Source: Bacilli bacterium
GTDB lineage: Bacteria; Bacillota_I; Bacilli_A; ML615J-28; CAG-698
Assembly: GCA_028693885.1 (NCBI GenBank)
Contig: JAQUUM010000016.1
Coordinates: 1-13,626, forward strand
Reading direction: 5' to 3'
Length of the DNA stretch: 13,626 nt
In this document: positions 1 through 13,626 of the stretch, piece after piece
How the letters are laid out: each line of letters begins with the position of its first letter
How positions within the stretch are numbered: the first letter of the stretch is position 1
Translations under genes and position numbers: made by a program
Notes under the pieces: model-generated
Databases searched by the model: none
Seen by the model: only the letters and a program-made list of their open reading frames with translations
Told to the model about the DNA's origin: nothing

Positions 1-34
1 ACATAAAAGTTAGAAAAAGAATTAGTTTTTTCAT
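1..34 (-). CDS. Start of a truncated gene with a signal-peptide-like N-terminus
   Basis: An ATG at 34-32 on the minus strand opens a frame reading MKKLILFLTFM before it leaves the window. Two lysines followed by a hydrophobic stretch are the usual opening of a lipoprotein or secreted protein. A purine-rich GAGGGCAGG ribosome binding site lies directly upstream (36-45). Only 11 codons are visible, so the product cannot be named. It reads in the same direction as the permease behind it, but a terminator at 79-110 separates the two. Confidence 0.45.
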   Translation of the reverse strand, partial: MKKLILFLTFM

Positions 35-52
35 ACCTGCCCTCGCTTTTAT

Positions 53-61
53 ATTTTAACA
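53..61 (-). promoter_or_regulatory. Candidate extended -10 promoter for the truncated gene at the left edge
   Basis: On the minus strand the sequence reads TGTTAAAAT, an extended -10 element (TGn plus TAAAAT), about 20 bases upstream of the ATG at 34. No convincing -35 box is visible at the usual distance, so this is a weak call based on position and the TGn motif. Confidence 0.3.
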
Positions 62-78
62 TATTTTATATATTTATA

Positions 79-110
79 AAAGAAAAGAAAAGTCAAAAAA
101 GACTTTTCTT
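79..110 (-). terminator. Rho-independent terminator after the permease gene
   Basis: A perfect 10-bp inverted repeat (arms 85-94 and 101-110, AAGAAAAGTC and GACTTTTCTT) encloses a 6-base loop. Read on the minus strand, the stem runs into a T-rich tail (TTCTTTT). It lies 24 bases past the permease stop codon. The stem is AT-rich, so strength is uncertain. Confidence 0.7.
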
Positions 111-133
111 AAACTTCATTTAAACTATTTTTT

Positions 134-1153
134 TTAAACAAAAAGATATCCAAATATATTAAACAAATATCCCATAACTATAATACCTATAGTTACTATA
201 CCAACAAAAGTTAAAAGCAATTTTGTTTTTACAACTTTTTTTATCATTATAATCGAAGGCAAAGAAAGTGCAGTTACAGCCATCATAAACGAAAGCACAG
301 TTCCAATTCCCACGCCTTTTAATACTAATGCTTCTGCAATTGGTAATGTACCAAATATATCAGCATACATCGGAATTCCAATAATCGTGGCAATTATAAC
401 AGAGAATGGATTTTTACTACCTAAAACTGTTTCAATAAATGATTGTGGGATAAAGCCATGAATTATTGCACCAATTCCCACTCCAATTAAAATATAAATC
501 CAAACTCTTTTAATAATCTCTTTAACTTGATCAAAAGAATATTTAAGTCTATCTTTACGAGTCATTTTAACTTCTTCTATCTCAGTAACACTAGCACTAT
601 CAATTTTCGCCGTAACGAACTCTTCAACATATTTATCCATCTTAAAAAAGCCAATTAAACTTCCGCCAATTACAGCTATAACAAGCCCCACTACAACATA
701 AGCAATTGCAATTTGCCAGTTAAAAATACTAGCAAGTAAAATAACTGAAGCCAAATCAACTAAAGGAGATGATATTAAAAACGAAAAAGTAACTCCAACA
801 GGAAGACCTGCTCTTGTAAAACCTATAAAAATTGGAATAGATGAACAAGAACAAAAAGGTGTTATAGTTCCAAGCAAAGCTCCAATTATATTAGCCCATA
901 TACCTTTAAATCTACCTAATATTTTTTTAGTTCTTTCAGGACTAAAATAAGATTGCACATAAGATGCAATAAATATCAAAACTGATAATAAAATAAAAAT
1001 CTTTATAACATCATAAAAGAAAAAAGTAATTCCTTTATATAATAGTGAATCAACATTAATTTTTAGAACACTTCCAAAAAACCAATTGACTATATCTTGA
1101 AGCCACTGCATTTTTAGTAATTGATTATTCATCCATTCAAAAACAATTTTCAT
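134..1153 (-). CDS. COG0701/DUF318 permease (ArsP-like family)
   Basis: This 339-residue integral membrane protein has about eight hydrophobic segments in two blocks. They are split by a charged cytoplasmic loop near residues 171-212. The family signature TPFCSCSSIP is at residues 98-107, with the paired cysteines C101 and C103, and a second conserved stretch PMYADIFGTLPIAEAL follows at 261-276. Characterised ArsP members export trivalent organoarsenicals through such cysteines, but many homologues are uncharacterised, so the substrate here is not known. The ATG at 1153 is supported by an AAAGGCGG ribosome binding site 6 bases upstream. The gene is monocistronic: it has its own promoter with a palindrome touching the -10 box, which suggests control by an unseen repressor, possibly thiol- or metalloid-sensing. 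The family call is firm and the substrate is open. Confidence 0.88.
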   Translation of the reverse strand: MKIVFEWMNNQLLKMQWLQDIVNWFFGSVLKINVDSLLYKGITFFFYDVIKIFILLSVLIFIASYVQSYFSPERTKKILGRFKGIWANIIGALLGTITPFCSCSSIPIFIGFTRAGLPVGVTFSFLISSPLVDLASVILLASIFNWQIAIAYVVVGLVIAVIGGSLIGFFKMDKYVEEFVTAKIDSASVTEIEEVKMTRKDRLKYSFDQVKEIIKRVWIYILIGVGIGAIIHGFIPQSFIETVLGSKNPFSVIIATIIGIPMYADIFGTLPIAEALVLKGVGIGTVLSFMMAVTALSLPSIIMIKKVVKTKLLLTFVGIVTIGIIVMGYLFNIFGYLFV

Positions 1154-1174
1154 AAAATACCGCCTTTAAATACT

Positions 1175-1194
1175 ATATAGATAACTATCTATAT
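1175..1194. promoter_or_regulatory. Palindromic operator candidate at the permease promoter
   Basis: A perfect palindrome, ATATAGATA-AC-TATCTATAT, has 9-bp arms and a 2-base centre. It overlaps the downstream end of the -10 box and covers the expected transcription start. A dimeric repressor bound here would block RNA polymerase. The AT-rich twofold form resembles ArsR/SmtB-type operators, which often control this permease family, but no regulator gene lies in the window, so the assignment is inference. Confidence 0.6.
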
Positions 1195-1220
1195 TATACA
1201 TATTTTGTTTAGATTGTCAA
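1193..1220 (-). promoter_or_regulatory. Sigma-A promoter of the permease gene
   Basis: The minus strand carries a perfect TTGACA (-35, 1215-1220) and a perfect TATAAT (-10, 1193-1198) separated by 16 bases. Transcription should begin near 1186, giving a leader of about 30 bases before the ATG at 1153. It is the best promoter match in the window. Confidence 0.85.
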
Positions 1221-1240
1221 AAGAATATACTTATTAATTT

Positions 1241-1272
1241 AAAATAAGGAAAAGCTTCAAAGCTTTCCCTTA
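1241..1272 (-). terminator. Terminator of the B12 uptake operon
   Basis: Arms 1245-1257 and 1260-1272 form a 13-bp stem with one A/C mismatch. On the minus strand the stem is followed by TTATTTTAAATT, a modest T-rich tail. The hairpin begins at the stop codon of the S component gene, which is typical for compact genomes. Because the nominal loop is only two bases, the top pairs will open in practice. Confidence 0.65.
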
Positions 1273-1788
1273 TAAATCAATCGAACTATATTTTTCATTA
1301 AATCTATTTATTGCTTCTTTTAAAGGATTATATACCCAAATAATACTCACAAAACTACTAACTGCAAGAATTGCTGTAAATGGTAAATCAGCTATTAAAT
1401 AAGCATATAAGTCTATTTTTAAAATCAAAACATTTACAACTAAAAAAGGTAGCACATAAATAAAAGCATATATTATACTAAGCAAACCCAAAAGATAAAC
1501 ATTCTCTACTTTTTTAAATATAGAATTAATTGTTAAAGGAATGATACTCCACCCAATAATCATACTTATAAAAAAAAGAATATTAAACCCAAAAACTAAA
1601 TTATCAAGCAAGACATGCACAAAAATAATGATCAAAGTCTTTTTTGTTTTCAAGACTCTTGAATATAGCATTATTAATAAAATAGTTAATTGAATATTTG
1701 GCAAAAAAGATAATACTAATTCCTGAACAAATAAAATTGCAGTTAATACTGCAAGCAAAGTAATTTCTCTAGTATTTATATTTTTCAT
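1270..1788 (-). CDS. ECF transporter S component, probably cobalamin-specific
   Basis: This 172-residue protein has about five to six hydrophobic helices and almost no soluble domain, the size and shape of an ECF-transporter substrate-binding (S) subunit. The first helix (residues about 9-29) carries A13-VLT-A17, the AxxxA motif by which S components dock on the EcfT scaffold. The stretch LSFLPNIQLTILLIMLYSR (26-44) followed by HVLLDNLVFGF (58-68) resembles Firmicute S components. S subunits bind vitamins and need the EcfA, EcfA' and EcfT proteins, which are not in this window and must be shared from elsewhere. Cobalamin specificity is inferred from the upstream cobalamin riboswitch and the two partner genes; CbrT is the known B12 S component. 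Its ATG overlaps the previous stop (ATGA), with a GGTGAT ribosome binding site. Confidence 0.8.
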   Translation of the reverse strand: MKNINTREITLLAVLTAILFVQELVLSFLPNIQLTILLIMLYSRVLKTKKTLIIIFVHVLLDNLVFGFNILFFISMIIGWSIIPLTINSIFKKVENVYLLGLLSIIYAFIYVLPFLVVNVLILKIDLYAYLIADLPFTAILAVSSFVSIIWVYNPLKEAINRFNEKYSSIDL

Positions 1789-2183
1789 GAGAAATCACCA
1801 ACGCTTGTATAAACAAATTTTATTATATCTTTATCTTTAAAATCTAGAGTTTTAATTCCTTTGGTTGCTAAAGCATCGTTTTTTAGAATCTTAATGAAAT
1901 CATTAACTCCATCAGTTTTAACACTTTCAAATTCTTTTAAAAATCCGCTACTATCTACTAAAATATCATAGCGCTCATTTAACAAAATATACAGCGTTGT
2001 TTTTTCACCATTTGTATATTCATTAAATTCCACTACTTCATTTATTGTTTCAACACCTGCTTCATCAATTAAAATAATAGTTATACTTCCATTACTAATA
2101 TTAGGCATACTAATAAAATAGATAAAGATGATTAAGCCTATGCCTAAAATAGATAACCCAATCTTAATAATTATATTTTTCAT
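1785..2183 (-). CDS. Membrane-anchored DUF4430 protein (transcobalamin beta-domain-like)
   Basis: Residues 4-25 form one N-terminal membrane anchor without a lipobox cysteine, and the rest (about 33-127) is extracellular. The soluble part follows the DUF4430 pattern: an opening strand (SITIILIDEAG, 33-43), a stretch where the ligand-domain leucine is expected (TTLYILLNE, 62-70), a central FLKEFESVKT (81-90), DFIKILKN (95-102) where other members have a Trp and an asparagine before a turn, and the closing DKDIIKFVYT (117-126). DUF4430 is the fold of the C-terminal B12-capping domain of intrinsic factor and transcobalamin. The start codon directly abuts the stop of the upstream gene (TAA-ATG), and I see no Shine-Dalgarno sequence, so translation probably depends on coupling. 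The family call rests on pattern recognition; the B12 role comes from the operon. Confidence 0.7.
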   Translation of the reverse strand: MKNIIIKIGLSILGIGLIIFIYFISMPNISNGSITIILIDEAGVETINEVVEFNEYTNGEKTTLYILLNERYDILVDSSGFLKEFESVKTDGVNDFIKILKNDALATKGIKTLDFKDKDIIKFVYTSVGDFS

Positions 2184-3035
2184 TTAAGAAAAAACATTAA
2201 TTCTTTCATCTAATTTTTTAAATTCTTGATAAAGTAAAAACGCTGAAAAAGCTTGCGGTGTTGAAAAACTAAGGTCAGCCTCACTATCTTCTTTTAACCA
2301 TTTAAAAGCATTATCTAATTTATAATCAAAAAGAATACTAATTAAATCTATACCATTAATATCTCTAGGATTTTCATTAAGCGCTAAAAATGCCATTGCT
2401 GCTATTGCAGTACTCGCAGAGTTGTTATTCCCCCAAGAGTTAATCCCTTCTGTACTTAGTGATTCAATGATTAAGTTTCTATGAGATGTTAAATCATAAT
2501 CTTTATTTGCTAAAGCTATAATTACTTGACTTGCATAATCACTATCACTATATGAATTATTTTCTAAATCTAATACATATTCTTCAAAAGTATTTTTTAA
2601 TTCATTCTCAATTTCTAAAACATTTAATGCATAAATAATATTAAGCATATCATAAACACTAGTAATACTTTCTGCTTCAATTAAATTCAACTCATTAATC
2701 ACATTTGTTTGATCAAGCCCGAAAAAATCATTACTTATTACGATTTTAAATAAATTAAGAGGCGTTTTTTCTAAACTATTTAGATAAATACCTAATTCAT
2801 TTTCATCTAAATCAATTCTAGATTTATCAAAATCTTCTAACTTTTTTAAAGCTCCCATAACATAAAAATTAACAACATACTCGTTTTCTTCAAACACTAC
2901 ATAATCCATTACCATAGTTTCAATAAAACTATCAACATATGAATCGACATTTTGATCAACTACATCTTTTTGTTCATTGTTTGAGCACCCAGCAAACACC
3001 AACAAAAAAATCAACATTAAAAACAATTTTTTCAT
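2184..3035 (-). CDS. Lipoprotein with transcobalamin/prenyltransferase-type alpha/alpha barrel
   Basis: A lipoprotein signal peptide (residues 1-16) ends in VFAG-C17, so the mature 267-residue protein is lipid-anchored outside the membrane. The remainder is almost wholly helical. The repeat signature is clear in the second half: SDSDYASQVIIAL (163-175), NSASTAIAAMAFLAL (205-219) and FSTPQAFSAFLLYQEF (257-272). These match the 'D/N-S-T-A...ALAAL' and 'TPQA...AL' rhythm of prenyltransferase/squalene-cyclase-like toroids and of the alpha-domain of intrinsic factor. No cyclase acid motif (DxDD) is seen, so a binding role is more likely than catalysis. It is the first gene behind the cobalamin riboswitch, with GAGGAG 6 bases before the ATG, and is followed without a gap by the DUF4430 gene. 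I infer that the two proteins form the two halves of a B12 binder. Confidence 0.72.
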   Translation of the reverse strand: MKKLFLMLIFLLVFAGCSNNEQKDVVDQNVDSYVDSFIETMVMDYVVFEENEYVVNFYVMGALKKLEDFDKSRIDLDENELGIYLNSLEKTPLNLFKIVISNDFFGLDQTNVINELNLIEAESITSVYDMLNIIYALNVLEIENELKNTFEEYVLDLENNSYSDSDYASQVIIALANKDYDLTSHRNLIIESLSTEGINSWGNNNSASTAIAAMAFLALNENPRDINGIDLISILFDYKLDNAFKWLKEDSEADLSFSTPQAFSAFLLYQEFKKLDERINVFS

Positions 3036-3060
3036 TTTTTCTCCTCATTTTATATTTTTA

Positions 3061-3216
3061 AAAACAGGTAAGTCTCCCGGCTCAACTTCACTTTACTCTG
3101 AACCTTCCCAAAAATTTTTATTTCCAGTGGTTATTTCATTTCATCAGTTTTACGGTTGCTGGGGCAGCTTGAGCTTTTAACTCAATTCCTTATTAAGTTT
3201 ATTAAACACCTATTAT
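3061..3216 (-). promoter_or_regulatory. Cobalamin (B12) riboswitch
   Basis: The minus strand carries the conserved cobalamin aptamer blocks in the right order. They are AATAGGT, the 5' side of P1 (3208-3214), AATAAGGAATT (3184-3194), a TTGAG/CTCAA stem (3169-3185), GCTGCCCCAGCAACCGTAA (3150-3168), GATGA (3141-3145), the B12-box core CCACTGG (3124-3130), GGAAGG (3103-3108) and GAGCCGGGAGACTTACCTG (3065-3083). The 3' strand ACCTGTT (3063-3069) closes P1 with one G-U pair. It lies 25 bases upstream of the lipoprotein ATG. No terminator hairpin follows, so control is probably at translation, although I cannot see which strand masks the GAGGAG site. Confidence 0.93.
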
Positions 3217-3226
3217 TAAATTCAAT

Positions 3227-3502
3227 TTAAATATTTGCAGCAATAAATCCTATTATATAAAACAGTACTCCAATGCCACTAAACAACAAATAATTTTTTG
3301 CTTGTATAGGATTTTCTTGAACATATAGTCCCCATAAAGCAAAACCAAGTGGTGGAAAAAATATTCCAATTAAAACATGTTTAGCAGTAATTGCATTTGG
3401 TTTTTTGATTTTTTGACTTTTTTCTTTTTTTATAGGCGTACCACACTTCCTACAAAAAACATCATTTTCTAAAACTTCTGTTTTACATTTTTCACAAATC
3501 AT
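3227..3502 (-). CDS. Small zinc-ribbon membrane protein
   Basis: In this 91-residue protein the N-terminal MICEKC...CRKCG has cysteines at 3, 6, 17 and 20, a four-cysteine zinc ribbon. A basic linker (25-35) leads to two hydrophobic segments (about 43-60 and 71-89). Zinc-ribbon plus short membrane domain proteins are common in Firmicutes, and the function of most is unknown. It is the last gene of the polA-dnaI operon, 9 bases after dnaI, with an AGGT ribosome binding site. Its 3' end lies against the B12 riboswitch and may contain that transcript's promoter. No link to replication or to B12 can be shown from the sequence. Confidence 0.75.
   Translation of the reverse strand: MICEKCKTEVLENDVFCRKCGTPIKKEKSQKIKKPNAITAKHVLIGIFFPPLGFALWGLYVQENPIQAKNYLLFSGIGVLFYIIGFIAANI
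3252..3257 (-). promoter_or_regulatory. Candidate -10 box for the B12 riboswitch transcript
   Basis: A perfect TATAAT lies on the minus strand inside the 3' end of the zinc-ribbon gene. It would start RNA near 3245, leaving about 30 bases before P1 of the riboswitch. The -35 region (AGTGGC at 3275-3280) is poor. A second possibility, TTGCTG-17-TTTAAT at 3215-3243, would start transcription inside P1 and so looks unusable. Read-through from the replication operon is the alternative source of this RNA. Confidence 0.35.
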
Positions 3503-3511
3503 ACTTATTAC

Positions 3512-4363
3512 CTATTTTATACGATGGTTTTCATCTGTCAAACTTACTACTTCCATCATATACCTAATCCTTTCAATTATTCGATCGCTTTTTATTGTAT
3601 TAACTTCACTTGAAGTTTCATTCAAATGTTGTCTTAATAAATTTAGATCATAATTGCTAGTCATAAAGACTGGCAAATTAGCATTAAGTCTATAGTTTAA
3701 TACTGGTCCTAATATATCATCTCTAATAAAATTAGTATTGTTTTCAGCTCCAATATCATCTAACATTAAAATGTCAACTGATTTCAATTTATCAACAATT
3801 CCTTCTAAAGCACCACTTGCAACAGCACTTCTTAAATTCCTTACTAAATCAGGATAATAAACAAATAAAACAGTTTTATTCATTTTAGTAAGTTGTTTCG
3901 CCAACTTTAATAAAATAAAAGTTTTTCCACTTCCAAAAGAACCATGAATATAAATTCCTTTAGTAAAAATATTATCATAATAGTTTTTATTAAATGTTTC
4001 AATCGCTTTAAAAATATTAGCTCGTTTATTATTATAAATCAATTCTTGATCTTCAACATCAACTTCTGGAAAATAAAGCATTTCTAATAAATAATCTTTA
4101 TTAACTCTAAAGGGACATTCTTTATAAGCTAAAATAACCTTACCATTTTCCATACTTAGTTTAGCTTGCATGTAATCCTCAAAAACACATTTCTTTTTCC
4201 CCATGCATTTACCACATTCGCCTAAATAATTAGCATAAGTTAGAAAACTTCCAAAGTTATCTATTATATCTTTTTCAGTTAATTTATGCTCTTTAATAAA
4301 CTCAAGAATTTCTTTTTTTGAAGTTATTTTCTTTTTTATATCATCGTATTTAGTATTCATCAT
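3512..4363 (-). CDS. dnaI: Primosomal helicase loader DnaI
   Basis: DnaI is an AAA+ ATPase of the DnaC/DnaI family that loads the replicative helicase on DNA with DnaB and DnaD. The 283-residue protein has an N-terminal helicase-binding region with four cysteines (C50, C53, C59, C83), consistent with the zinc-binding domain of Bacillus DnaI. The ATPase follows: Walker A GSFGSGKT (141-148), Walker B LMLDD (199-203), sensor-1 TSN (235-237) and arginines in SDRIIERIR (259-267), where the arginine finger and sensor 2 are expected. Its ATG overlaps the dnaB stop by four bases (ATGA), the same gene order as in Bacillus subtilis. Length and motifs are complete, so it should be functional. Confidence 0.93.
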   Translation of the reverse strand: MMNTKYDDIKKKITSKKEILEFIKEHKLTEKDIIDNFGSFLTYANYLGECGKCMGKKKCVFEDYMQAKLSMENGKVILAYKECPFRVNKDYLLEMLYFPEVDVEDQELIYNNKRANIFKAIETFNKNYYDNIFTKGIYIHGSFGSGKTFILLKLAKQLTKMNKTVLFVYYPDLVRNLRSAVASGALEGIVDKLKSVDILMLDDIGAENNTNFIRDDILGPVLNYRLNANLPVFMTSNYDLNLLRQHLNETSSEVNTIKSDRIIERIRYMMEVVSLTDENHRIK

Positions 4364-5646
4364 TTCCCCTCAAGTATGCTCTTAGCTCTTTCAAAAACTT
4401 TATCTATATTTCCATCATCTTCACTACTATCTATTTTTTTATTTTCAAGGCCTTTTTGGTAATCATCATACCATTCTGGCTTTAATGTTTTATCTTTTTT
4501 ATAGCTTGTTTTTGTTTTAGAATTGCTAGGCACTGTCTTAGTTTTATTTTTCATATAAGTTAAAGCATCTAATGCTGTCTTGATATTAGCCCTAGCCCAA
4601 GTATTAGCAATTTTTTCAAAATAATTATAACTCGGTAATTCACCATTTTTTTCTTTTAAAACCATTAATATCATAACATTAATTACAGCTGGTGAAAAGT
4701 GAGTTTTTTCAAGCAATGCATCTATCATTGCAATTTCTGAAACACTTGGCGAAATCCCTGATGTTGATCTTAGAACATCAGAAGGTGATGAATTCTCTAA
4801 ATAATTTAATAATTCTTTTGTTTCATCATCAACAACACTATTAATAAAAGCATCTTTTTCATTATTAACTAATTTAGGGGTTTTATCATTATTTTTCTTT
4901 TGGAATAATTTTTTAGCATTAGCTGTAATATCTGACAATTTTAAATCTTTATCAATCGTAATAGTTTTAATAATTACTTCATGCATTTCTTCTTCATTTA
5001 ATTTAAATAAATAACTAACTCTGTAAATTGTATCTTTAAATTCTTTAGTTTCTAAAACATTATTATTGATGAATTTCGTATCAAAAAAACTTTTAAAGAA
5101 ACTATAATCAAAGTCTTCATTGTTAATAGTTATATTATTAGAGGTTTTTGCATTTATCATTTTATCAAAAATATCAAGATTAGTTTTTGTTGAAGTGGTA
5201 AAAACTTCATTAAATGTTTTTGTTGTTTCTTGATAGTTTTTTGATGAAGTTTTCTTTTTAGAAAACTTAGCAACTTCACTTTCTCCAATCTCACTTTCTA
5301 ATAAAGCTTTAAGTGTCGCATCGTTTAAAAACAAACTATCACTTAAAGGAGAAACTAATTCATATAAAAAACTCATTTGTTTATTAACATAAACTTTTAA
5401 TAAACCAAAAGCTTGAAGTTTATTAAAGGCATTTTCTAACATCTTAGCACTTGTAAAATGCAAATTATCAAGCAATCTTTTATGATCAAAGCTATCTTCT
5501 GACTCTAAAAAAGAAAGCATCATATAAAGAGAATAACTATCAATTCCTATTAACGGCAAATATAGGAGACTCAGTGTTTTGTAGTCTCCTCCAGTTAAGG
5601 CTATTTGATTGTTTATTTTAAAACTACTATGAATGTCTAAAGCCAT
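4360..5646 (-). CDS. dnaB: Replication initiation and membrane attachment protein DnaB (Firmicute type)
   Basis: This is the Firmicute DnaB/DnaD-superfamily primosome protein, not the helicase called DnaB in E. coli. It remodels origin or restart DNA and recruits the helicase with DnaI. Residues about 1-105 form the winged-helix N-domain (LSLLYLPLIGIDSYSLYMML). A variable lysine/threonine-rich linker follows (about 125-200). A helical region spans 200-250, and the C-terminal DnaB_2/DnaD-like domain (about 265-370) ends in the signature SYNYFEKIANTWARANIKT (339-357). The tail 368-428 is charged. The ATG at 5646 has GAGG seven bases upstream. It is 428 residues against about 470 in Bacillus. 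The context immediately before dnaI confirms the call. Confidence 0.9.
   Translation of the reverse strand: MALDIHSSFKINNQIALTGGDYKTLSLLYLPLIGIDSYSLYMMLSFLESEDSFDHKRLLDNLHFTSAKMLENAFNKLQAFGLLKVYVNKQMSFLYELVSPLSDSLFLNDATLKALLESEIGESEVAKFSKKKTSSKNYQETTKTFNEVFTTSTKTNLDIFDKMINAKTSNNITINNEDFDYSFFKSFFDTKFINNNVLETKEFKDTIYRVSYLFKLNEEEMHEVIIKTITIDKDLKLSDITANAKKLFQKKNNDKTPKLVNNEKDAFINSVVDDETKELLNYLENSSPSDVLRSTSGISPSVSEIAMIDALLEKTHFSPAVINVMILMVLKEKNGELPSYNYFEKIANTWARANIKTALDALTYMKNKTKTVPSNSKTKTSYKKDKTLKPEWYDDYQKGLENKKIDSSEDDGNIDKVFERAKSILEGK
5564..5590. repeat. Intragenic inverted repeat near the dnaB 5' end
   Basis: Perfect 8-bp arms AGGAGACT (5564-5571) and AGTCTCCT (5583-5590) flank an 11-base loop, spanning codons 19-28 of dnaB. 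These are among the more GC-rich bases nearby. In the mRNA this hairpin would lie about 55 bases after the start codon. It has no T-run, so it is not a terminator. It may be chance or may tune translation. Confidence 0.5.
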
Positions 5647-5658
5647 AATAAAACCTCA

Positions 5659-6027
5659 TTATTTATATAAACTCGTACCTTTATATGGTAATACTTTATC
5701 TAATTCTTGATATATTTTTTCAATTATTTTTTTACCTGGTCCCATAAGACCAAACATTCTAAAAGTCGTAACTTTTATATCTATCGCTGTTTCATTAATC
5801 CTAGGACTAATATAAATTATAACTGCGCTATATTTAGGTGTTTCAAAAAATATTTCATGATAGTTTGCACTCTCACTTTTTATTCTACCTTTTTCTAAAG
5901 CAATTACTTGTTTAATTTTTTCATAAGCTTCTTCATTTCTTGCTCGATAATACCTAGTTTTTAAACTAGGTATATAATGATCTTCTGTTGTTTCAAAATC
6001 ATTACTAAAATAATCTAAAATTTTCAT
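5659..6027 (-). CDS. Uncharacterised 122-residue protein in the replication operon
   Basis: I do not recognise this family. The protein is soluble, with no signal peptide, membrane segment or cysteine. From the sequence I expect an N-terminal acidic stretch (1-18), a basic YYRAR patch (26-30), a helix rich in E and K (32-50), then alternating strands (HEIFFET, 57-63; YSAVIIYISP, 66-75; TAIDIKVTTF, 80-89). A glycine loop FGLMGPGKK (92-100) and a C-terminal helix (101-113) end it. The loop GPGKK is not a full Walker A. Its ATG overlaps the coaE stop (ATGA) and it lies 12 bases before dnaB, so it is surely co-expressed with both. An 11-bp hairpin covers codons 19-26. It is a real gene by frame, spacing and coupling; its function is unknown. 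Confidence 0.7.
   Translation of the reverse strand: MKILDYFSNDFETTEDHYIPSLKTRYYRARNEEAYEKIKQVIALEKGRIKSESANYHEIFFETPKYSAVIIYISPRINETAIDIKVTTFRMFGLMGPGKKIIEKIYQELDKVLPYKGTSLYK
5950..5973. repeat. Perfect 11-bp inverted repeat inside the unknown gene
   Basis: Arms 5950-5960 (ATACCTAGTTT) and 5963-5973 (AAACTAGGTAT) are perfect complements with a 2-base centre. In RNA this would form about nine pairs with a six-base loop, across codons 19-26 of the 122-residue gene. No T-run follows on either strand. It could be an RNA-processing or translation-control hairpin between coaE and dnaB, or a protein-binding palindrome (the core is CCTAG...CTAGG). Confidence 0.6.
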
Positions 6028-6587
6028 TTTAATTTCTCCAATACTTCATCGACTTGTTTAAAAGTAATCTCTTGTTCTTCGTTATTATCAATAACAAAAT
6101 CAGCTAAACGCTTTTTTTCTTCCATTGAAAGTTGAGAGGCAATTTTTTTTAATGCATATTCTTTATCTATATTATCTCGTTTCATCAAGCGTTCTATTTG
6201 TTTTTCTTTTGAAACATAAACTACTATAATTTTATCAAAAATCTTTTTATATGATGTCTCATATAAAAGTGGTACATCAACAAATAATAATAAATCTTTA
6301 TTTTTTTTAATTTCCATCTTTATTTTTTTCAAAACTTCAGGATGAATAATATTTTCTAGTTTTTCTTTTAAAATATTAGAATTAAATATTTCTAAAGCAA
6401 TTTGCTTCTTGTCTATTTTACCACCAACAAAAGCATTAGGGAATAACTTTTTTATTCTTTTAATGTTTTTATCAAAAACTTCTTTTGAAATCAAATCTGC
6501 ATCAAGTACTTTATAGCCTTTTTTTATTAAGTAGTTTGAGACAAGAGATTTACCACTACCAATAGAACCAGTTATTCCAATAACCAT
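6024..6587 (-). CDS. coaE: Dephospho-CoA kinase
   Basis: CoaE catalyses the last step of coenzyme A synthesis, phosphorylating the 3'-hydroxyl of dephospho-CoA with ATP in the cytoplasm. The P-loop GSIGSGKS (7-14) follows the start. LDADLIS (28-34) carries the acidic residues near the active site. HPEV (82-85) and DVPLLYE (104-110) are family signatures, and RLMKRD (133-138) belongs to the lid. At 187 residues it is slightly shorter than the usual 195-205. It lies 4 bases after mutM and overlaps the next gene by four bases. The mutM-coaE pairing is the same as in Bacillus, where only one gene intervenes. All key residues are present. Confidence 0.93.
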   Translation of the reverse strand: MVIGITGSIGSGKSLVSNYLIKKGYKVLDADLISKEVFDKNIKRIKKLFPNAFVGGKIDKKQIALEIFNSNILKEKLENIIHPEVLKKIKMEIKKNKDLLLFVDVPLLYETSYKKIFDKIIVVYVSKEKQIERLMKRDNIDKEYALKKIASQLSMEEKKRLADFVIDNNEEQEITFKQVDEVLEKLK

Positions 6588-6591
6588 TTAT

Positions 6592-7413
6592 TTACTCCTT
6601 TATTTTCTGACAATCACTACAGTAATAACTACTCCTTGTATTAATAAAATCTTTTTTTATTAAACTATTACATCTAGGACAATTTTTTTTCATATGAACA
6701 TTTAAACTATTTTGAAAACGCCCATTAATATCATGAACTTTAAAAGTCCTTATAGTCGTACCACCTAATAAAATTGCTTTATCTAAAATCTCTTTTGAAT
6801 ATTTAATAATTTTTTCAATTTCAATATCATCTAAAAGATTAGCTTTTGTATAAGGGTTAATAGATGACAAAAATAACACTTCATTAGCATAAATATTCCC
6901 AAGCCCACTTATTATACTTTGATCAAGCAAAACAGTTTTAATTGGTTTAGTACTTCTTTTAAATTTAGTTTTTAAATATTCTATACTTAATTCACTATTA
7001 TTAGCTTCTAATCCTAAAAGACTCAAAGGCTTAACTTTATAAATATCAATATCTTTTTCAAATAAATATATTTTACCAAATTTTCTAACATCATTATATA
7101 TTAATATTTTTTTACTTTCAAGGTAAAATACTACATGGTCATGTTTTCCTAGAAAATCATCTTCTTTTAAAATGTATTTTCCTTCCATTCTTAAATGTGA
7201 CAACAAATAAAAATCACTTAATTCAAAAATCAAAAACTTAGCTTTTCTTTTAATTTCAATTATTTTTTGATTTTTAATCTTTGTTTCAAAATCTTGATAA
7301 TTAATATTAGCAATAATGTTAGGCCACATTACCTTTACTTTTGAAATTACTTCGTTTTTAACTAAACTATTTAAATGATTTTTGACGGTTTCTACTTCTG
7401 GTAATTCAGGCAT
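6592..7413 (-). CDS. mutM: Formamidopyrimidine-DNA glycosylase
   Basis: MutM (Fpg) removes 8-oxoguanine and formamidopyrimidines from DNA and cuts the abasic site by beta/delta elimination. After removal of Met, the N-terminal proline nucleophile and Glu of MPELPEVETVK are exposed. The conserved lysine lies in RKAKFL (K59). SHLRMEG (72-78) and NDVRKFG (107-113) hold the residues that fill the gap left by the flipped base, and SGLGNIYANEV is the helix-two-turn-helix. The C-terminal zinc finger has C245, C248, C265 and C268 with the DNA-contacting R260. The 273 residues match the family length, and all catalytic residues are present. It is 2 bases after the nitroreductase and 4 before coaE. Confidence 0.95.
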   Translation of the reverse strand: MPELPEVETVKNHLNSLVKNEVISKVKVMWPNIIANINYQDFETKIKNQKIIEIKRKAKFLIFELSDFYLLSHLRMEGKYILKEDDFLGKHDHVVFYLESKKILIYNDVRKFGKIYLFEKDIDIYKVKPLSLLGLEANNSELSIEYLKTKFKRSTKPIKTVLLDQSIISGLGNIYANEVLFLSSINPYTKANLLDDIEIEKIIKYSKEILDKAILLGGTTIRTFKVHDINGRFQNSLNVHMKKNCPRCNSLIKKDFINTRSSYYCSDCQKIKE

Positions 7414-7415
7414 AT

Positions 7416-7931
7416 CTAAAACCTATCATAATGAATTCTACTAGGATCATATTTATCTATAAATTTAAAGTCACTTTCATCTTTTGGATAACCCAAAGCT
7501 ACCATTGAAAAATATTCAAAATTATCAGGAAGTGAAATAATACTTTCAACTTTAGCCATTCTTTCTTTATTAGGAAAAGTACCAAGCCAGACACTACCAA
7601 TATTTAATGCAGTAGCTGCTAACATCAAATTTTGAGTAGAGGCTGCCATGTCTTGAGGATATAAATCAGGTGATGTTACAGAAGCTTTATCAGTTACTAG
7701 TATTATACAAAGAGCAGCCTCAGCTAACATTCTACCATTTGATAAAGCATATGATAATTCCTTTAGAACTACTTTATCACTTATGACAATAAAATGCCAC
7801 GGTTTTTCTCCACGTGCAGTCGGAGCTTGCATTGCCATTCTAAGCATAACATCAATTTCTTGTTTTGAGATTTCTTTGTTAGAAAACTTTCTAATACTTC
7901 TTCTTTTCTTTATAGCTTCAAAAATATCCAT
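7416..7931 (-). CDS. Nitroreductase-family FMN oxidoreductase
   Basis: A 171-residue protein of the nitroreductase superfamily, homodimeric FMN enzymes that pass electrons from NAD(P)H to nitro, quinone or related acceptors. The FMN-binding motifs are AIKKRRSIRKF (6-16, RRSIR contacts the phosphate), APTARGEKPWHFIVI (36-50) and IGSVWLG (111-117). It belongs to the short subgroup common in anaerobic Firmicutes, whose natural substrates are mostly unknown. It is set between polA (10 bases) and mutM (2 bases), a place where Bacillus has no such gene, so a link to oxidative damage repair is possible but unproved. The specific reaction cannot be read from the sequence. Confidence 0.88.
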   Translation of the reverse strand: MDIFEAIKKRRSIRKFSNKEISKQEIDVMLRMAMQAPTARGEKPWHFIVISDKVVLKELSYALSNGRMLAEAALCIILVTDKASVTSPDLYPQDMAASTQNLMLAATALNIGSVWLGTFPNKERMAKVESIISLPDNFEYFSMVALGYPKDESDFKFIDKYDPSRIHYDRF

Positions 7932-7941
7932 TTTAACCCCC

Positions 7942-10563
7942 TTATTTGGCCGCTAGCCACGTTTTCCCGCTACTTACCTCTACAGTTAAAGGTACACTTA
8001 AACTAACAGCATTCTCCATTATTTTTTTTACTAAAACTTTAACTTCTTCAACTTCATCACTTGGTGCATCTAGTAATAACTCATCATGGACTTGAGCGAT
8101 CAAAATTGTATTAAGTCCTTTTTTCTTTAATTCGCTATGGACTAAATTCATCGCAATTTTAATAATATCCGCTGCAGTCCCTTGGACTGGAGCATTCATA
8201 GCAGTTCGTTCTGATGCTTCTTTCAACATTTTATTAGAACTATTTATTTCACTAATATAACGTCTTCTATTAAATAGCGTTTTTGTATAACCATTTGTTT
8301 TAGCATCAAGCACCACTTTATCTAAAAATTCTTTTACTTTAGGAAAATTAGCAAAATACTTTTTAATATAAATATCAGCATCTTTAGGAGAGATATTAAT
8401 ATTACCACTCAATCCCCAAGCACTAATACCATAGATGATTCCAAAATTAATGGCTTTGGCGGTTCTTCTCATAGAAGAATCTACCGCATCAAGAGCGACT
8501 TCAAAAATTTGACTAGCTGTAATTGTATGAATATCTTTTCCATCTTTAAACATCTTTATCATATTTTCATCACTAGATAAATGAGCTACTATCCTTAATT
8601 CAATTTGAGAATAATCAGCACTAATAATACTTCCATTAACAAACCTAGAAACAAAAGCTTCTCTTATCACTTGACCGGTTTCAGTTCTAATAGGCATATT
8701 TTGAATGTTAGGATCAAAAGAAGATAGTCTTCCTGTTGTTGTTAGAGCTTGTTTATACAACGGATGAATATAACTATCTTGATCTATTAAATCTAGCAAC
8801 CCTAAAACGTAAGTACTATTAATCTTCATAAGTGTTCTATATTCTAAGATATCACTAGCAATACTATGGCCTTCTAAACTTAATTGTTCTAAAACTTTTG
8901 AATCAGTTGAGAATCCAGTTTTAATTTTCTTTCCAGTCGGAAGCCTCATATCTTCAAACAAAGCTTTGGCAAGTTGCTTTGGTGATGATATATTAAATTC
9001 ATACCCAACCTTTTTATATATTTCTTTTGAAATTATTTCAGCTCTTTTTTCTAAATCTTCCCCAATTAAAACTAATTTCTTTTTATTTAATAAAAGCCCT
9101 GATATTTCCATATCACCTAAGACTTTTGATAAATAATATTCAATATCCCTAAGCAAATCAAGACTTACTTTACTTAAATCATTTTTTATTTCTTTTTCTA
9201 ATGATTTAATAATTATACATTTTCTTAAAGCATATTTACTATAAATATTAACCAAAGGAATTAAAGCCTTTTTGCCAGCCCCATAGATTTCATCAGTATA
9301 ACAATCGCAAGCAAGATTATATTTATCAGCGATATTTTTTATATCATCTGAGGCGTTATCTGGATTTAATAAATATGTGTCTAATAATAAATCAAAATCT
9401 AAACCATTAAGTTCAATTCCAAATCTTTTTAATACAACATAAGTCTTTTTAAAATTAAAGGTTTTCTTTTTATACTTTTCATTTTCTAAATAAGTTTTTA
9501 ATGATTTAGAATTAACAACTACTTCTTTTTCAATAAACATTGATTTAGAACCACTTATAAGACCTAAACCTAAAAAATGAGCAGTATAATAATTGTTTCC
9601 GAAAACTTCAGTTTCAATTATTCCATCTTGATTTAAAAAGCTAAAATCATAATCTATTTTAGATATTATCTCATACTCAATTTCAGCTTCTTTTACAAGT
9701 GGCATATCTAGTTTTTTAAGAAAAGAATTAAATTCTAAATTTCTGAAAAATTTATTTAATTTTTCAAAATCAGGAATTTGTTTCTCAATCTCTTTTAAAG
9801 AAAGAATATTTTTATTGTCAGTAATTAAAGTAGCTAGACTCTTGCATTCAAAACTTATTTCTTTATTATCTAAAAACAATTGTTTGTTTTTATCTGATAA
9901 TTTATCTAAATTATTATAAATATTTTCTAAACTACCAAATTCAGTTAAAAGCTTTATTGCAGTCTTTTCGCCAATTCCTTTAATGCCCGGTAGGTTATCA
10001 GATGTATCTCCTACTAAACCTTTATAATCTGTTACTTGATTAGGATTTAAACCACTTAATTCATAAAAATTGTTTGAATCATAGGTAAGTAATTCAGTAA
10101 TTCCTTTTTTAGTTAAACTTACTTTTATTTTTCCATTAACTAATTGAAGCAAATCTCTATCAGCCGTTAAAATTTCAATTTCATCAACACTATCATAAAT
10201 ATTTTTACTAGCAATAGCCAGTAAATCATCCGCTTCATATTCTTTCATTTCAAGACGTTTAATATTTAAAATATCTAGATATTCTTTTATATAGTCTATT
10301 TGCATAGCTAATTCTTCGGGCATCTTTTTTCTATTAGCTTTATAACTGTCTAAACGTTGATGACGAAAAGTTTCTTTCCCCGCATCAAAGGCAACAAATA
10401 TATAATCAAATTCACTTTCTAAGATTTTATTCATCATATTAATAAAACCATAAATCGCATTAGTATAAAGTCCGCTAGAAGTTTTCATAACATTACCATA
10501 GAATGTTGCATAAAAAGCTCTAAACATCAAACTATTACCATCAATTAAAACTGCTTTTTTCAT
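7942..10563 (-). CDS. polA: DNA polymerase I with 5' nuclease and degenerate proofreading domain
   Basis: I chose the ATG at 10563 (873 residues): GAGGTG lies 4 bases upstream, and a longer frame would need a TTG at 10575 overlapping this site. The 5' nuclease domain (1-290) has IDGNS, FDAG, YEADD, TADRD, GDTSDN and the H3TH region GIKGIGEKTA, so the metal-binding acids are present. The middle domain (about 300-470) has lost the proofreading acids: IIETEV replaces the D-x-E motif, FNFKKT has no Asp, and YALRK replaces the Y-x-x-x-D motif. This matches Bacillus and Thermus Pol I. The polymerase motifs are intact: A (DYSQIELRI, from D650), B (RRTAKAINFGIIYG, Phe707) and C (VHDE, about 825-828). 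It heads the repair and replication operon and fills gaps and removes RNA primers. Confidence 0.96.
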   Translation of the reverse strand: MKKAVLIDGNSLMFRAFYATFYGNVMKTSSGLYTNAIYGFINMMNKILESEFDYIFVAFDAGKETFRHQRLDSYKANRKKMPEELAMQIDYIKEYLDILNIKRLEMKEYEADDLLAIASKNIYDSVDEIEILTADRDLLQLVNGKIKVSLTKKGITELLTYDSNNFYELSGLNPNQVTDYKGLVGDTSDNLPGIKGIGEKTAIKLLTEFGSLENIYNNLDKLSDKNKQLFLDNKEISFECKSLATLITDNKNILSLKEIEKQIPDFEKLNKFFRNLEFNSFLKKLDMPLVKEAEIEYEIISKIDYDFSFLNQDGIIETEVFGNNYYTAHFLGLGLISGSKSMFIEKEVVVNSKSLKTYLENEKYKKKTFNFKKTYVVLKRFGIELNGLDFDLLLDTYLLNPDNASDDIKNIADKYNLACDCYTDEIYGAGKKALIPLVNIYSKYALRKCIIIKSLEKEIKNDLSKVSLDLLRDIEYYLSKVLGDMEISGLLLNKKKLVLIGEDLEKRAEIISKEIYKKVGYEFNISSPKQLAKALFEDMRLPTGKKIKTGFSTDSKVLEQLSLEGHSIASDILEYRTLMKINSTYVLGLLDLIDQDSYIHPLYKQALTTTGRLSSFDPNIQNMPIRTETGQVIREAFVSRFVNGSIISADYSQIELRIVAHLSSDENMIKMFKDGKDIHTITASQIFEVALDAVDSSMRRTAKAINFGIIYGISAWGLSGNINISPKDADIYIKKYFANFPKVKEFLDKVVLDAKTNGYTKTLFNRRRYISEINSSNKMLKEASERTAMNAPVQGTAADIIKIAMNLVHSELKKKGLNTILIAQVHDELLLDAPSDEVEEVKVLVKKIMENAVSLSVPLTVEVSSGKTWLAAK

Positions 10564-10597
10564 AATACACCTCAATACATTTATCTTATTCTATCAT

Positions 10598-10606
10598 AAA
10601 AGACTA
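10598..10606 (-). promoter_or_regulatory. Extended -10 promoter of the polA operon
   Basis: The minus strand reads TGATAGAAT, an extended -10 (TGn plus TAGAAT), which predicts a start near 10591 and a leader of about 28 bases before the polA ATG at 10563. The -35 region (GTGATT or TGATTT) is poor, which fits an extended -10 promoter. As the following genes are nearly gapless, it may drive the whole run to 3227. Confidence 0.55.
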
Positions 10607-10665
10607 GAAAAATCACTAGTATTACTAATATAAAAATTATTCTTTTTTTTTAATCTTATTTAAAG

Positions 10666-10671
10666 TATAAT
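10666..10671 (+). promoter_or_regulatory. -10 box of the DUF362 gene
   Basis: A perfect TATAAT lies 16 bases before the ATG at 10688, so the mRNA leader would be only about 10 bases and just hold the GGTGAT ribosome binding site. The -35 position is inside a T-run (10641-10650) and matches poorly. Confidence 0.5.
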
Positions 10672-10687
10672 TGATTTGGTGATATAT

Positions 10688-11848
10688 ATGAGCAAAGTAG
10701 TTGTAAAAATATGTGAAGAATATAATTTAGAAATTATCAAAACAAAGCTTTTAGAAAGTTTTGATTTATTAGGTGGAATTAATAATATAATCAAACCTAA
10801 TCAATCAGTTTTTTTAAAAGTTAATTGTTTAGGAGCTTTTGATGAAACAAAAGCAATTACTACTAATCCTGTTTTTCTTAAAGCAATAATCCAAATAGTA
10901 AAAGAAATAACACCCAATATTATAGTTGGAGATAACCCAGCTACTAAAGAAATGATTCATGCATTAAAGAAAAACGGAATGTATAAAGTGATTGAAGAAG
11001 AAAACATAACTTTATTTAATCCAAAAGATTTTATCCAAATTGAAAACTCTAGTTATAAAATTTATAACTCTTTCGAAGTTTCAAAATCAATGGTTGAATC
11101 TGATGTTTTAATTAACATACCAAAATTAAAAACACACGCTCTTGCTTATATGACCGTAGCCGAAAAAAATCTTTTTGGTTTGATCTATGGTTTAAGTAAG
11201 GCTGCTTGGCATGTAAAGGCTGCTGATCCGCTACAGTTTGGTGAAATGATTAACGATTTATATGGTGCCTTACTTGAAGCCAGAAAAGGTAAACCGATTT
11301 TGAATATTTGTGACGGAATTATTGGTCTTGAAGGTGAAGGTCCTTCAACTGGTGGGACCCCTATTAATTCAAAACTTATTTTAACATCTCTTGATGCAGT
11401 TAGTCTAGACACAGTAGCCGTTAATTCTGTAGGACTTGATTATGATAAAATGTTTATAACAAAAATAGCTGGAAAAAGAAATTACGGAAAAAACGATTTA
11501 AAAGATATTACTATTCTAGGTGATGATTATAAAAAACTAAATCTAGAATTTATAGCACCTAAAGACTCAATGAGCATTTGGGGGCTTAAATTAATTAGAC
11601 ATAAGTTTGTAAGAAATCTATTTTTAGAACATCCTGTAATAAATACTGAACTTTGTATAAAATGTGGCGAATGTGCGAAAATTTGTCCTCCAAAAGCTAT
11701 GACTATAAACTCAAAAGAATTCCCGAAAGTACAGACCAACCAATGCATTAGATGTTGGTGTTGCGCTGAGGTCTGTCCACAAAATGCTATTATTAAAAGT
11801 AAACGTCCTTTACTGGGAAAAATATTTCTTAAGAATAGAGATAAATAA
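10688..11848 (+). CDS. DUF362 protein with C-terminal 2x[4Fe-4S] ferredoxin domain
   Basis: The ATG at 10688 (386 residues) is preferred over a TTG at 10676 because GGTGAT lies six bases upstream of it. The first 300 residues are the DUF362 domain, with KVNC near the start, GDNPAT, IPKLKTHALAYMTVAEKNLFG, and a NICDGIIGLEGEGPSTGGTP loop. The C-terminus has two clusters: C323, C326, C329, C333 (CIKCGECAKICP) and C353, C356, C359, C363, with an extra Cys at 358 (CIRCWCCAEVCP). DUF362-ferredoxin proteins occur in anaerobes; their reaction is unknown, though the clusters imply electron transfer. It is single, divergent from polA, and ended by a strong hairpin. The family call is firm and the function is open. 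Confidence 0.9.
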   Translation: MSKVVVKICEEYNLEIIKTKLLESFDLLGGINNIIKPNQSVFLKVNCLGAFDETKAITTNPVFLKAIIQIVKEITPNIIVGDNPATKEMIHALKKNGMYKVIEEENITLFNPKDFIQIENSSYKIYNSFEVSKSMVESDVLINIPKLKTHALAYMTVAEKNLFGLIYGLSKAAWHVKAADPLQFGEMINDLYGALLEARKGKPILNICDGIIGLEGEGPSTGGTPINSKLILTSLDAVSLDTVAVNSVGLDYDKMFITKIAGKRNYGKNDLKDITILGDDYKKLNLEFIAPKDSMSIWGLKLIRHKFVRNLFLEHPVINTELCIKCGECAKICPPKAMTINSKEFPKVQTNQCIRCWCCAEVCPQNAIIKSKRPLLGKIFLKNRDK

Positions 11849-11851
11849 ATA

Positions 11852-11884
11852 AAAGAAACTCATTTTTTAAAATGAGTTTTTTTT
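11852..11884. terminator. Bidirectional terminator between the DUF362 and LRR genes
   Basis: Perfect 11-bp arms AAACTCATTTT (11856-11866) and AAAATGAGTTT (11869-11879) run into an unbroken T-run to 11884 on the plus strand, 8 bases after the DUF362 stop. On the minus strand the tail is TCTTTTATTTATTT, so it can also end the LRR operon that converges from the right. Confidence 0.88.
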
Positions 11885-11932
11885 ATTTGATCTATAAAGA
11901 TAGCAAAAATTTTAAGTTCTATCCTATAAGTT

Positions 11933-13006
11933 TCATTCTCCTATATATCCCCATATTACTGGCGGACCATTATCATTCCATTTTTCGTGCCAACCAGCCG
12001 GTTTACTTTCAGCAAAACAATAAATAAATGTGTCACTATAATAATCAAAAGCACTTTCTCCTATTATTGCTACATTGGATGGAATAATTATATTCTTTAA
12101 ACAAAGACATTGAGCAAAAGCATTTTCACCAATTTCTACAACTTCATCACCTATTACAAAGTTTTCTAATTCATTACAGTAATAAAAGGCATTTTCTTCT
12201 ATTTTAGTAATATTATTTTCACCAGAAAAACTTACAGTTTTTAAATTATCTAAATGTTCAAAAACACTTTTTTCTAATACTGTAATAGTTTCTGGTAAAG
12301 TTATCTCTTGTACATATTCTATATAGTTAAAATGTGATGCAAATCCCATTGCACGAAATGTAGTATTTGCTAGCCTTGTTACTGGAATGCCGTCGATTGT
12401 TTCAGGGATTATTATGTGTGCATATTCCTCTTCTGCTCTAGCGTACGTTATAACAATTTCATCGCTTTTTAATACAACATAATCAAACATATCGTTTGAT
12501 CTTTTTTCTAGATAATTAAAAATAGTAGGTGATTCCCCAAAGCCCCAATGGGCCCAATCATCACTCCATCCAACGGGTTTACTTTCAGCAAAACAATAAA
12601 AATAATTATAACAACATCTATAAAAAGCATTTTCTTCTATCACTTCAACATTTTCTTTAATTTCAATGTTTCCTACAGGTAAACTATTAAAGGCATTTTC
12701 TTCTATTTTTGTTATATTTTCGCCAATATATAAATTAGGGTACCATCCATCCGTAAAGTAAACATTGTTCATAAATGCACTAGCGCCGATTGTAGTTACT
12801 TTTTTATCTTTATATGTTAATGGGATAATAATATCACTAACCAGATTTTCAGAATATCTATCAGCAGTTGCTTTTACAATTTTATATGTATCATCTTCTT
12901 GAAGTTCATATTCATAAGTCCAAACTTCAGTTTCTTCTTTCTTGCAGCCTGCTAAAAATGCAAAAATAACTATCGTTAGAATTAAATAAAAAGTTTTATT
13001 TTTCAC
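11933..13006 (-). CDS. BspA-like leucine-rich-repeat surface lipoprotein
   Basis: The signal peptide ends in FLAG-C21, so this 357-residue protein is lipid-anchored at the surface. It has two similar modules (about 30-165 and 172-355). Each starts with a 'DY/TY...IIIP...V(T)...IG/LA...AF' strand block, continues with LRR_5/TpLRR repeats of the form I-x-E-N-A-F (IEENAF at 101 and 123, IEENAFYYC at 269, IGENAF at 292, IGESAF at 315) and ends with the cap CFAESKPxGWxxxW (138-151 and 330-343). BspA-type repeats serve in adhesion or host contact in other bacteria; the role here is unknown. The start is GTG at 13006, with AAGGAG eight bases upstream and the gene 12 bases after the BIG2 gene, so the pair is co-transcribed. 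Confidence 0.88.
   Translation of the reverse strand: MKNKTFYLILTIVIFAFLAGCKKEETEVWTYEYELQEDDTYKIVKATADRYSENLVSDIIIPLTYKDKKVTTIGASAFMNNVYFTDGWYPNLYIGENITKIEENAFNSLPVGNIEIKENVEVIEENAFYRCCYNYFYCFAESKPVGWSDDWAHWGFGESPTIFNYLEKRSNDMFDYVVLKSDEIVITYARAEEEYAHIIIPETIDGIPVTRLANTTFRAMGFASHFNYIEYVQEITLPETITVLEKSVFEHLDNLKTVSFSGENNITKIEENAFYYCNELENFVIGDEVVEIGENAFAQCLCLKNIIIPSNVAIIGESAFDYYSDTFIYCFAESKPAGWHEKWNDNGPPVIWGYIGE
12000..12600. repeat. Internal 25-base direct repeat of the LRR gene
   Basis: The same 25 bases (12000-12024 and 12576-12600) encode the FxYCFAESKP segments of the two caps. Identity at DNA level is higher here than in the rest of the modules, so the duplication is either recent or kept even by recombination. 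The repeat would allow deletion of one module of 576 bases, which is in frame. Confidence 0.8.
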
Positions 13007-13018
13007 TATATTTCTCCT

Positions 13019-13606
13019 TTAACTAACTATAATTGTCATTTCTACATTACCATAAAACTTGTCATTAAAATTATATGTACCTGTAATAGTAGTTGTCCCT
13101 ACGCTGTTTCCTCTAATATATCCTAGACCATCAACACTCGCAATCACAGGATTACTACTTGACCATGTAAAATGTTGAATAATACTTGATGGTGAAATAT
13201 CTTCTCCCATAGCGTTTTGCATAACTATGCAAATCGCCCTTGTATATCCAACATAAACCACATTTTCTAAGACCCCACTAAATTGTACCATAGTTCCATT
13301 ATAAAATGAATCATATCTTTGATCTGTAGTTAATGCTAACTCATAAGGAGTTGATGAAGAATCAGGCCATACAGTAATTAAAATATCTTTAACATAACTC
13401 ATTTCGGCTTTTAAAACAGCTCTAATTATACTCGTCCCTTCTGAAATTGCTGTAATTGTACCATAATCTGATACTATCGCTACCGCTTCGTTTGTTGAAT
13501 ATAAATAATAATCTAATCTTGATATTTTAGTACCGTCACTTGCATCAAAGTAAACAAGTCTTGTATAACCTTCAGTTATATAAGTCCCACTAGCACCACC
13601 ATTACA
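13019..13606 (-). pseudogene. BIG2 (Ig-like) surface protein, 5'-truncated or frameshifted
   Basis: The open frame reads from 13606 to the TAA at 13019, 195 codons. It holds two tandem BIG2 domains: GYTRLVYFDAS...LYSTNEAVAIVSDYGTITAISEGTSIIRAVL and GYTRAICIVMQ...WSSSNPVIASVDGLGYIRGNSVGTTTITGTY. The only in-frame ATG (13402) falls in the last strand of the first domain and has no ribosome binding site (GCCGAA precedes it), so the short 127-residue version is not a credible start. At 13607-13609 the frame meets TAA, and a second TAA follows at 13622-13624. A neighbouring frame is open from there to the edge, so a frameshift, a decayed gene or a sequence-end error would all explain it. Such domains form surface stalks. 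It reads straight into the LRR gene, 12 bases downstream. Confidence 0.65.
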
Positions 13607-13626
13607 TTAGAAAATTAAGATTTAGT

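Follow-up and report, generated by a model that had tools for sequence, protein, structure and literature searches.

The window analysed here is the whole 13,626-nucleotide stretch of contig JAQUUM010000016.1 (positions 1 to 13,626, GenBank assembly GCA_028693885.1) from a Bacilli bacterium of the lineage CAG-698. On its minus strand, a cobalamin riboswitch is followed by three genes whose common role is very likely corrinoid uptake. They encode a lipoprotein with a predicted alpha/alpha toroid (alpha), a membrane-anchored DUF4430-type protein (beta) and an S component of the energy-coupling factor (ECF) transporters (S). Together they probably form a riboswitch-controlled corrinoid importer, in which beta and S would be the core and alpha would close a transcobalamin-like site. 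The riboswitch and the gene order are observed directly. The aptamer RF00174 (3050..3228, minus strand) was matched by cmscan over the full length of the model (1-189 of 189) with 89.8 bits and an E-value of 1.5e-21, the gathering score being 31.5, and it is the sole RF00174 match found in this genome (1.34 Mb, 86.5% complete). Behind it, the alpha gene (2184..3035, minus strand, 283 amino acids) abuts the beta gene (1785..2183, minus strand, 132 amino acids), which overlaps the S gene (1270..1788, minus strand, 172 amino acids) by 4 bases. The tightly packed series ends at an intrinsic terminator-like hairpin (1244..1273, minus strand) with 13 pairs and a T-rich tail, for which a folding energy of –15.5 kcal/mol and a fold z of –3.69 were obtained. 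The minimum energy structure of the operon leader was not more stable than those of shuffled sequences (z –0.42). The layout agrees with an initial annotation of the window, which had described a cobalamin riboswitch and three coupled genes.

The S protein contains several hydrophobic stretches and the motif AVLTA at residues 13-17. An AxxxA motif in the first helix is the docking motif of S components, and it had been recognised in the initial annotation. Both of its alanine positions are small residues (A, S, G, T or C) in 37 of the 43 rows of the S family profile A1. The only significant PDB match of this profile was 6fnp_A, with an E-value of 1.5e-4 over positions 3-167; the window S sequence alone gave 0.92 against the same chain. 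The search tool names the chain merely 'Membrane protein', and the entry 6FNP is ECF-CbrT, a proven cobalamin importer (PMC5997447). No Pfam family was matched by the window S component, and PF12822 was matched by 2 of the 43 family members. By analogy with CbrT and other known relatives, vitamin B12 would be the ligand and S would deliver it through an ECF module. In the same genome (G000), an EcfT family gene (PF02361, E 1.1e-39) is located at G000:C170, away from the operon, and the presence of a module was judged from this EcfT gene. The arrangement is like that of Lactobacillus delbrueckii, in which one ECF module is common to several S components (PMC5997447). A FecCD-type permease is not clearly present, since its sole match in the genome scored 25.8 bits against a cut-off of 26.5.

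The two soluble proteins appear to be tethered to the membrane, as had been proposed: alpha has a hydrophobic N-terminus with the lipobox FAGC, and beta has a single N-terminal hydrophobic stretch at residues 1-30. The predicted structure of alpha is an alpha/alpha toroid with a predicted local distance difference test (pLDDT) value of 88. In a Foldseek search with this model, ranks 1 to 6 were all transcobalamin or intrinsic factor, and one of the six was under an E-value of 0.001. A Pfam search of alpha up to an E-value of 0.5 gave no PF00432, PF13243 or PF01122, and the only row, DUF5347, is at chance level. PF01122 was also absent among the families listed for 19 alpha family members at E-values of 0.01 or less. 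Therefore, the alpha/alpha repeats are assigned from the predicted structure and not from a domain match. The alpha/alpha repeats of the initial annotation stand, but the prenyltransferase-type families named with it were not recovered. The description of beta as a DUF4430 protein with a membrane anchor holds for the anchor and for the family, since 23 of 25 beta family members matched PF14478 (DUF4430) at E-values of 0.01 or less; the window protein itself remained below the Pfam cut-off (E 0.0069; 17.3 bits against 23.8). The beta family profile A3 matched 3u7z in the PDB with an E-value of 3.1e-14. Among solved DUF4430 structures it is the nearest one, and its label is 'putative metal-binding protein'. 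A match of the window beta to the phosphatase 3pct (E 6e-4) was discarded because it was missing from the family profile matches up to an E-value of 10. The structural likeness of beta rests on a fused relative, P0008, rather than on the window protein. The P0008 model (pLDDT 75.9, from 7 sequences) shows the element order strand, strand, helix 62-67 and strands 72-77 and 80-86. The best Foldseek match of its beta domain was the isolated human transcobalamin beta domain 5no0 (E 1.1e-4), with a template modelling score of 0.74 normalised by the 105-residue target. Through the two Foldseek searches, the suggested likeness of both soluble parts to transcobalamin and intrinsic factor is supported.

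The linkage between beta and S is conserved. The survey comprised 120 genomes, many of them drafts, and the S family was broad (48 matches in 45 genomes). The best 32 S homologues, from 32 genomes, were picked by their score against a profile built with the window S protein among its members. At all 32, a DUF4430 gene lies not more than 300 bases upstream on the same strand. Over all 48 S matches, this was the case in 35, and a DUF4430 gene was found within 4 kb in 39. As a control, the same 120 genomes were examined for S components of PF12822; among the matches listed, 0 of 150 show a same-strand DUF4430 gene in the 300 bases before S, which excludes chance as the cause of the adjacency. Moreover, beta and S are fused in one chain, with beta in front, at L044:992-2110 and L049:5401-6528. 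The fusion argues that the two act together, and it is likely that beta works directly with S. Relatives within the class carry the pair too, as do sequence records with the labels Erysipelotrichaceae, Acholeplasmataceae and Bacilli. One S component of the window family, at L036:1473-2063, has no upstream DUF4430 match. Near the control S genes of G016 and G024, there is a DUF4430 gene on the opposite strand; in these loci (L126 and L127, about 3.4-4.2 kb), the DUF4430 gene is divergent from the PF12822 S component, and a cobalamin riboswitch is on the DUF4430 strand.

A cobalamin riboswitch was detected at 25 of the 32 best S loci, the window included. The flanks scanned were unequal in length, and those of G029, G031, G035, G036 and G040 were taken from public records that carry an identical S protein. 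The seven misses are G050 and G095, where the contig ends upstream, and G028, G035, G036, G075 and G086. In L042 and L043 (G036 and G035), the DUF4430-S pair without the riboswitch stands beside apparent ABC permease and lipoprotein genes, as judged by eye, and its substrate or control has possibly changed. Another 20 loci were examined in which the DUF4430 match had not been scored as adjacent to S; RF00174 was present in 14, and DUF4430 was the first gene after it in 12. In L118-L127, L130 and L131, where DUF4430 takes this first place, no S-family match was found in the stretch fetched. Several of these proteins are about 130 amino acids long with a lipobox (by eye), the domain is repeated in L130, and the genes may serve an S component elsewhere. 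The 15 control loci scanned for riboswitches (of 30 fetched), which are shorter than most test loci, contained 10 flavin mononucleotide (FMN) and 0 cobalamin riboswitches. The initial annotation had named thiamine, FMN and preQ1 riboswitches as signs that would speak against a B12 role, and no thiamine pyrophosphate, FMN or preQ1 riboswitch was found before any alpha, DUF4430 and S set in the loci scanned. A tetrahydrofolate riboswitch in L083 lies about 3.6 kb upstream of DUF4430, not directly before the gene set, and an adenosylcobalamin riboswitch (RF01482) in L135 lies past the S gene, not upstream of the set.

Genes of B12 metabolism were found among the neighbours that were picked for checking. 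Directly after S are a PduO-type adenosyltransferase in L026, a CobO-type adenosyltransferase in L037, a MetH activation-domain gene with a MetH-type protein in L033, the S subunit of glutamate mutase (methylaspartate mutase) in L007 and MTHFR in L032. In L031, an adenosyltransferase-family gene precedes the beta-S pair. Together with the riboswitch here and at most relatives' loci and with the CbrT-like S component, these neighbours bear out the B12 or corrinoid uptake of the initial annotation. One could propose that the set senses B12 at the surface rather than transporting it, or that it imports an unrelated compound and happens to have a cobalamin riboswitch. The functional role is indeed read from sequences and models, 3u7z carries its metal-binding label, and 5 of the 32 loci are without the riboswitch despite an available flank (G028, G035, G036, G075 and G086). 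However, the match of the S family to ECF-CbrT, the riboswitch at the 25 loci, the B12 genes beside S in several relatives and the failure to find, in the loci scanned, a riboswitch for another vitamin before such a gene set make this proposal very improbable.

The identity of the corrinoid was also considered. The precorrin isomerase CbiC was not found in the genome of the window and is present in 1 of the 120 genomes searched. Its absence fits B12 auxotrophy, and the bacterium seems unable to make vitamin B12. The genome contains a MetH-type protein, whose open reading frame begins within its first Pfam domain. For this protein and that of L033, the label 'MetH-type' was chosen because the Pfam domain set is present but the score is under the NCBIfam metH cut-off. 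The gene set might handle another corrinoid, such as cobinamide or pseudo-cobalamin, or several of them, and this would be compatible with or without a clamp made by alpha and beta. A cobalamin riboswitch reports the corrinoid status rather than the transported vitamer, and the search of the genome for corrinoid-synthesis genes covered CbiC alone. A MetH-type protein needs a complete cobamide, which counts against such a ligand, and the adenosyltransferases near S in relatives fit either case. Both known B12 transporter families are reported to import B12 and cobinamide (PMC6593275). On balance, another corrinoid is regarded as unlikely.

Alpha, the first gene of the three, is where the conserved trio expected by the initial annotation was only partly recovered: the DUF4430-S pair and, in most loci, the riboswitch were found, but 16 of the 32 loci have no alpha match beside the pair. 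Alpha without a DUF4430 match, followed by beta and S, was seen in five loci (G000, G010, G012, G029 and G050), and the alpha open reading frame of G050 has 557 amino acids with an extra N-terminal part. In ten loci, a protein with fused beta and alpha domains precedes beta and S, and in one (G095) alpha is cut off at the contig end. Alpha is most likely an added module. It has its own beta domain in ten loci and none in five, and in these five the anchored beta would be its natural partner. The anchored beta is the sole DUF4430 match in the genomes of the window, G010, G012 and G050, so that an alpha in need of a beta partner has only this one there. In G029, the DUF4430 search gave one match and the search with the alpha profile gave a second, fused protein; this fused beta-alpha protein (G029:C50:4308-5396) lies away from the alpha-beta-S operon.

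Several observations weigh against the closing of a transcobalamin-like site by alpha. The commonest arrangement, in 16 of the 32 loci, is beta and S without an adjoining alpha match, and in 15 of these 16 genomes no alpha match was found elsewhere among the matches listed (not more than 15 candidates scored per genome); in the other, G091, an alpha match is in a second ECF operon. It follows that at these loci DUF4430 has to serve S unaided by alpha, that the beta-S core can do without the clamp and that alpha is optional. The loci speak against the strict reading of alpha and beta as two halves of one binder, as first put forward. The alpha/alpha toroid is a common fold, also found in other toroid proteins, and VIA-align placed squalene-hopene cyclase and epimerases above intrinsic factor for the alpha model. 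No sequence profile match to any solved carrier was obtained for the alpha part. The beta profile A3 placed transcobalamin-2 (5no0) second with an E-value of 0.067, which is not significant, as is 0.11 for transcobalamin-1. For P0008, neither transcobalamin nor intrinsic factor was among the 50 VIA-align rows listed, which cover its alpha part. The alpha tree (17 rows) leaves undecided whether the alpha-only proteins had one origin or more: they appear in 2 changes, few forks are well supported and the window protein is on a long branch. In the S tree (30 rows), the alpha-only loci are not grouped, with 5 changes for 6 rows.

These points bear on a rival with the same B12 importer and no composite clamp. 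In it, beta would serve S exclusively, as a lid or receptor, and alpha would be independent, either as a scavenger or as a scaffold that holds the corrinoid, or another surface partner, by itself. The sixteen loci with beta and S alone and the beta-S fusions of L044 and L049 speak in its favour. On the other side are the 10 of 32 loci at which alpha carries a fused beta domain of its own, the animal carriers, which likewise join both domains, and the lone DUF4430 match in the genomes of the window, G010, G012 and G050. The rival is a serious but less than even possibility. For the preferred importer with a site closed by alpha, a two-chain clamp is plausible, and the chances that alpha and beta share one ligand in this organism are about even. 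The human proteins are a good biochemical precedent by analogy: TC-alpha and TC-beta made separately co-elute only with cyanocobalamin, and isolated TC-beta by itself binds cyanocobalamin (PMC5599065).

The importer with a closing alpha may work as follows. At low B12, the leader would permit expression of the operon. The ligand would be a corrinoid, vitamin B12 or a close vitamer, which the anchored beta would hold at the outer face and pass to S. S would then dock on the common ECF module, whose genes lie elsewhere, and carry the corrinoid in. The alpha toroid, tethered to the same outer face, would give the second half of the site and close over the beta-bound corrinoid in a ligand-dependent complex, so as to capture it tightly and then release it to S. 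Both the clamp across two chains and the hand-over from beta to S are steps that we infer. A genuinely split transcobalamin, in which two tethered surface proteins close ligand-dependently on one corrinoid and release it into an ECF S component, is put forward tentatively, as slightly short of an even chance.

The initial annotation regarded this as a different capture route, and to call it unanticipated is too strong. Burroughs et al. in 2007 defined a transcobalamin-like SLBB clade in bacteria, proposed that bacterial surface proteins with SLBB and toroid parts, encoded next to CbiO/CbiQ, scavenge B12, and put forward low-GC Gram-positives as the source of the carriers in animals (PMC1796856). 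Therefore, the present finding extends a known proposal. As in that clade, where SLBB proteins of low-GC Gram-positives are secreted or anchored, toroid partners are fused on either side, and a second SLBB paralogue and ECF-type CbiO/CbiQ genes can adjoin in the operon (PMC1796856), exported SLBB and toroid proteins were found here with an S component in the operon and EcfT elsewhere. Unlike that clade, toroid and SLBB are separate proteins here, the partner is a solitary CbrT-like S component, the window operon contains no CbiO/CbiQ, and it has a cobalamin riboswitch, a word absent from the main text of that paper. The present analysis adds to the 2007 proposal that cobalamin riboswitches accompany many of the loci, that beta is paired with a CbrT-like S component, that beta can be fused to S and that alpha and beta also occur as separate chains. 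No experimental test of a bacterial DUF4430 or transcobalamin-like B12 binder was found in titles and abstract starts of the open-licence PMC literature.

Human transcobalamin and intrinsic factor share with this system an alpha/alpha toroid and a beta-grasp domain, with fold likeness of both parts. However, they are one secreted chain in the order alpha-beta, whereas two tethered chains are present here and the fused bacterial relatives have the order beta-alpha. The absence of a PF01122 match in the window alpha is a further difference. In BtuF-BtuCD, the folds of the binder and the permease differ from those here. The ECF transporter class is thought to bind its substrate by S alone, and we know of no described ECF transporter with capture and release into an S component. 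If true, an outer-face protein serving an S component adds a capture step to this class, and a split transcobalamin would preserve in a present-day bacterium the parts that may once have been joined into the animal B12 carriers. The window system would also be a small, concrete test case for the 2007 proposal on the bacterial origin of these carriers. BtuF-BtuCD resembles the system in that B12 is captured at the surface and then imported through the membrane (PMC5997447). ECF-CbrT of L. delbrueckii shares the S component family and the AxxxA motif, but the excerpts of its report mention no accessory surface protein (PMC5997447), whereas an anchored DUF4430 is upstream at all of the best loci here. 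In the human gut, known B12 transporters were found in only about half of the B12-auxotroph genome variants, and the identification of the remaining ones was called an open problem (PMC6593275). The DUF4430-plus-S pair could be a simple, testable marker for such importers.

A second ECF operon type was noticed in L077, L078 and L079, and also in L080, L134, L135 and L136. It consists of an EcfT-like gene, a double ATPase and an S component of roughly 230 amino acids. A cobalamin riboswitch is present in L077-L079 and L136; the family check of EcfT and the ATPase was made for L077. The EcfT-like gene is preceded by a DUF4430 match in L080 and L134-L136, and in L134 this match itself comes after a protein that gave an alpha-type match. 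A plasmid search with the DNA at 1200-3300 of the window gave no match. Elsewhere in the window, an ArsP_1-type permease gene (134-1153, minus strand; PF03773, E 1.7e-69) has a sigma-70-like promoter match of 12/12 at 1220-1193. A BspA-type leucine-rich-repeat protein gene (11933-13006) is preceded by a small Big_2-domain gene (13019-13402), both on the minus strand. The sole large plus-strand open reading frame (10676-11848) encodes a DUF362 protein with 4Fe-4S motifs.

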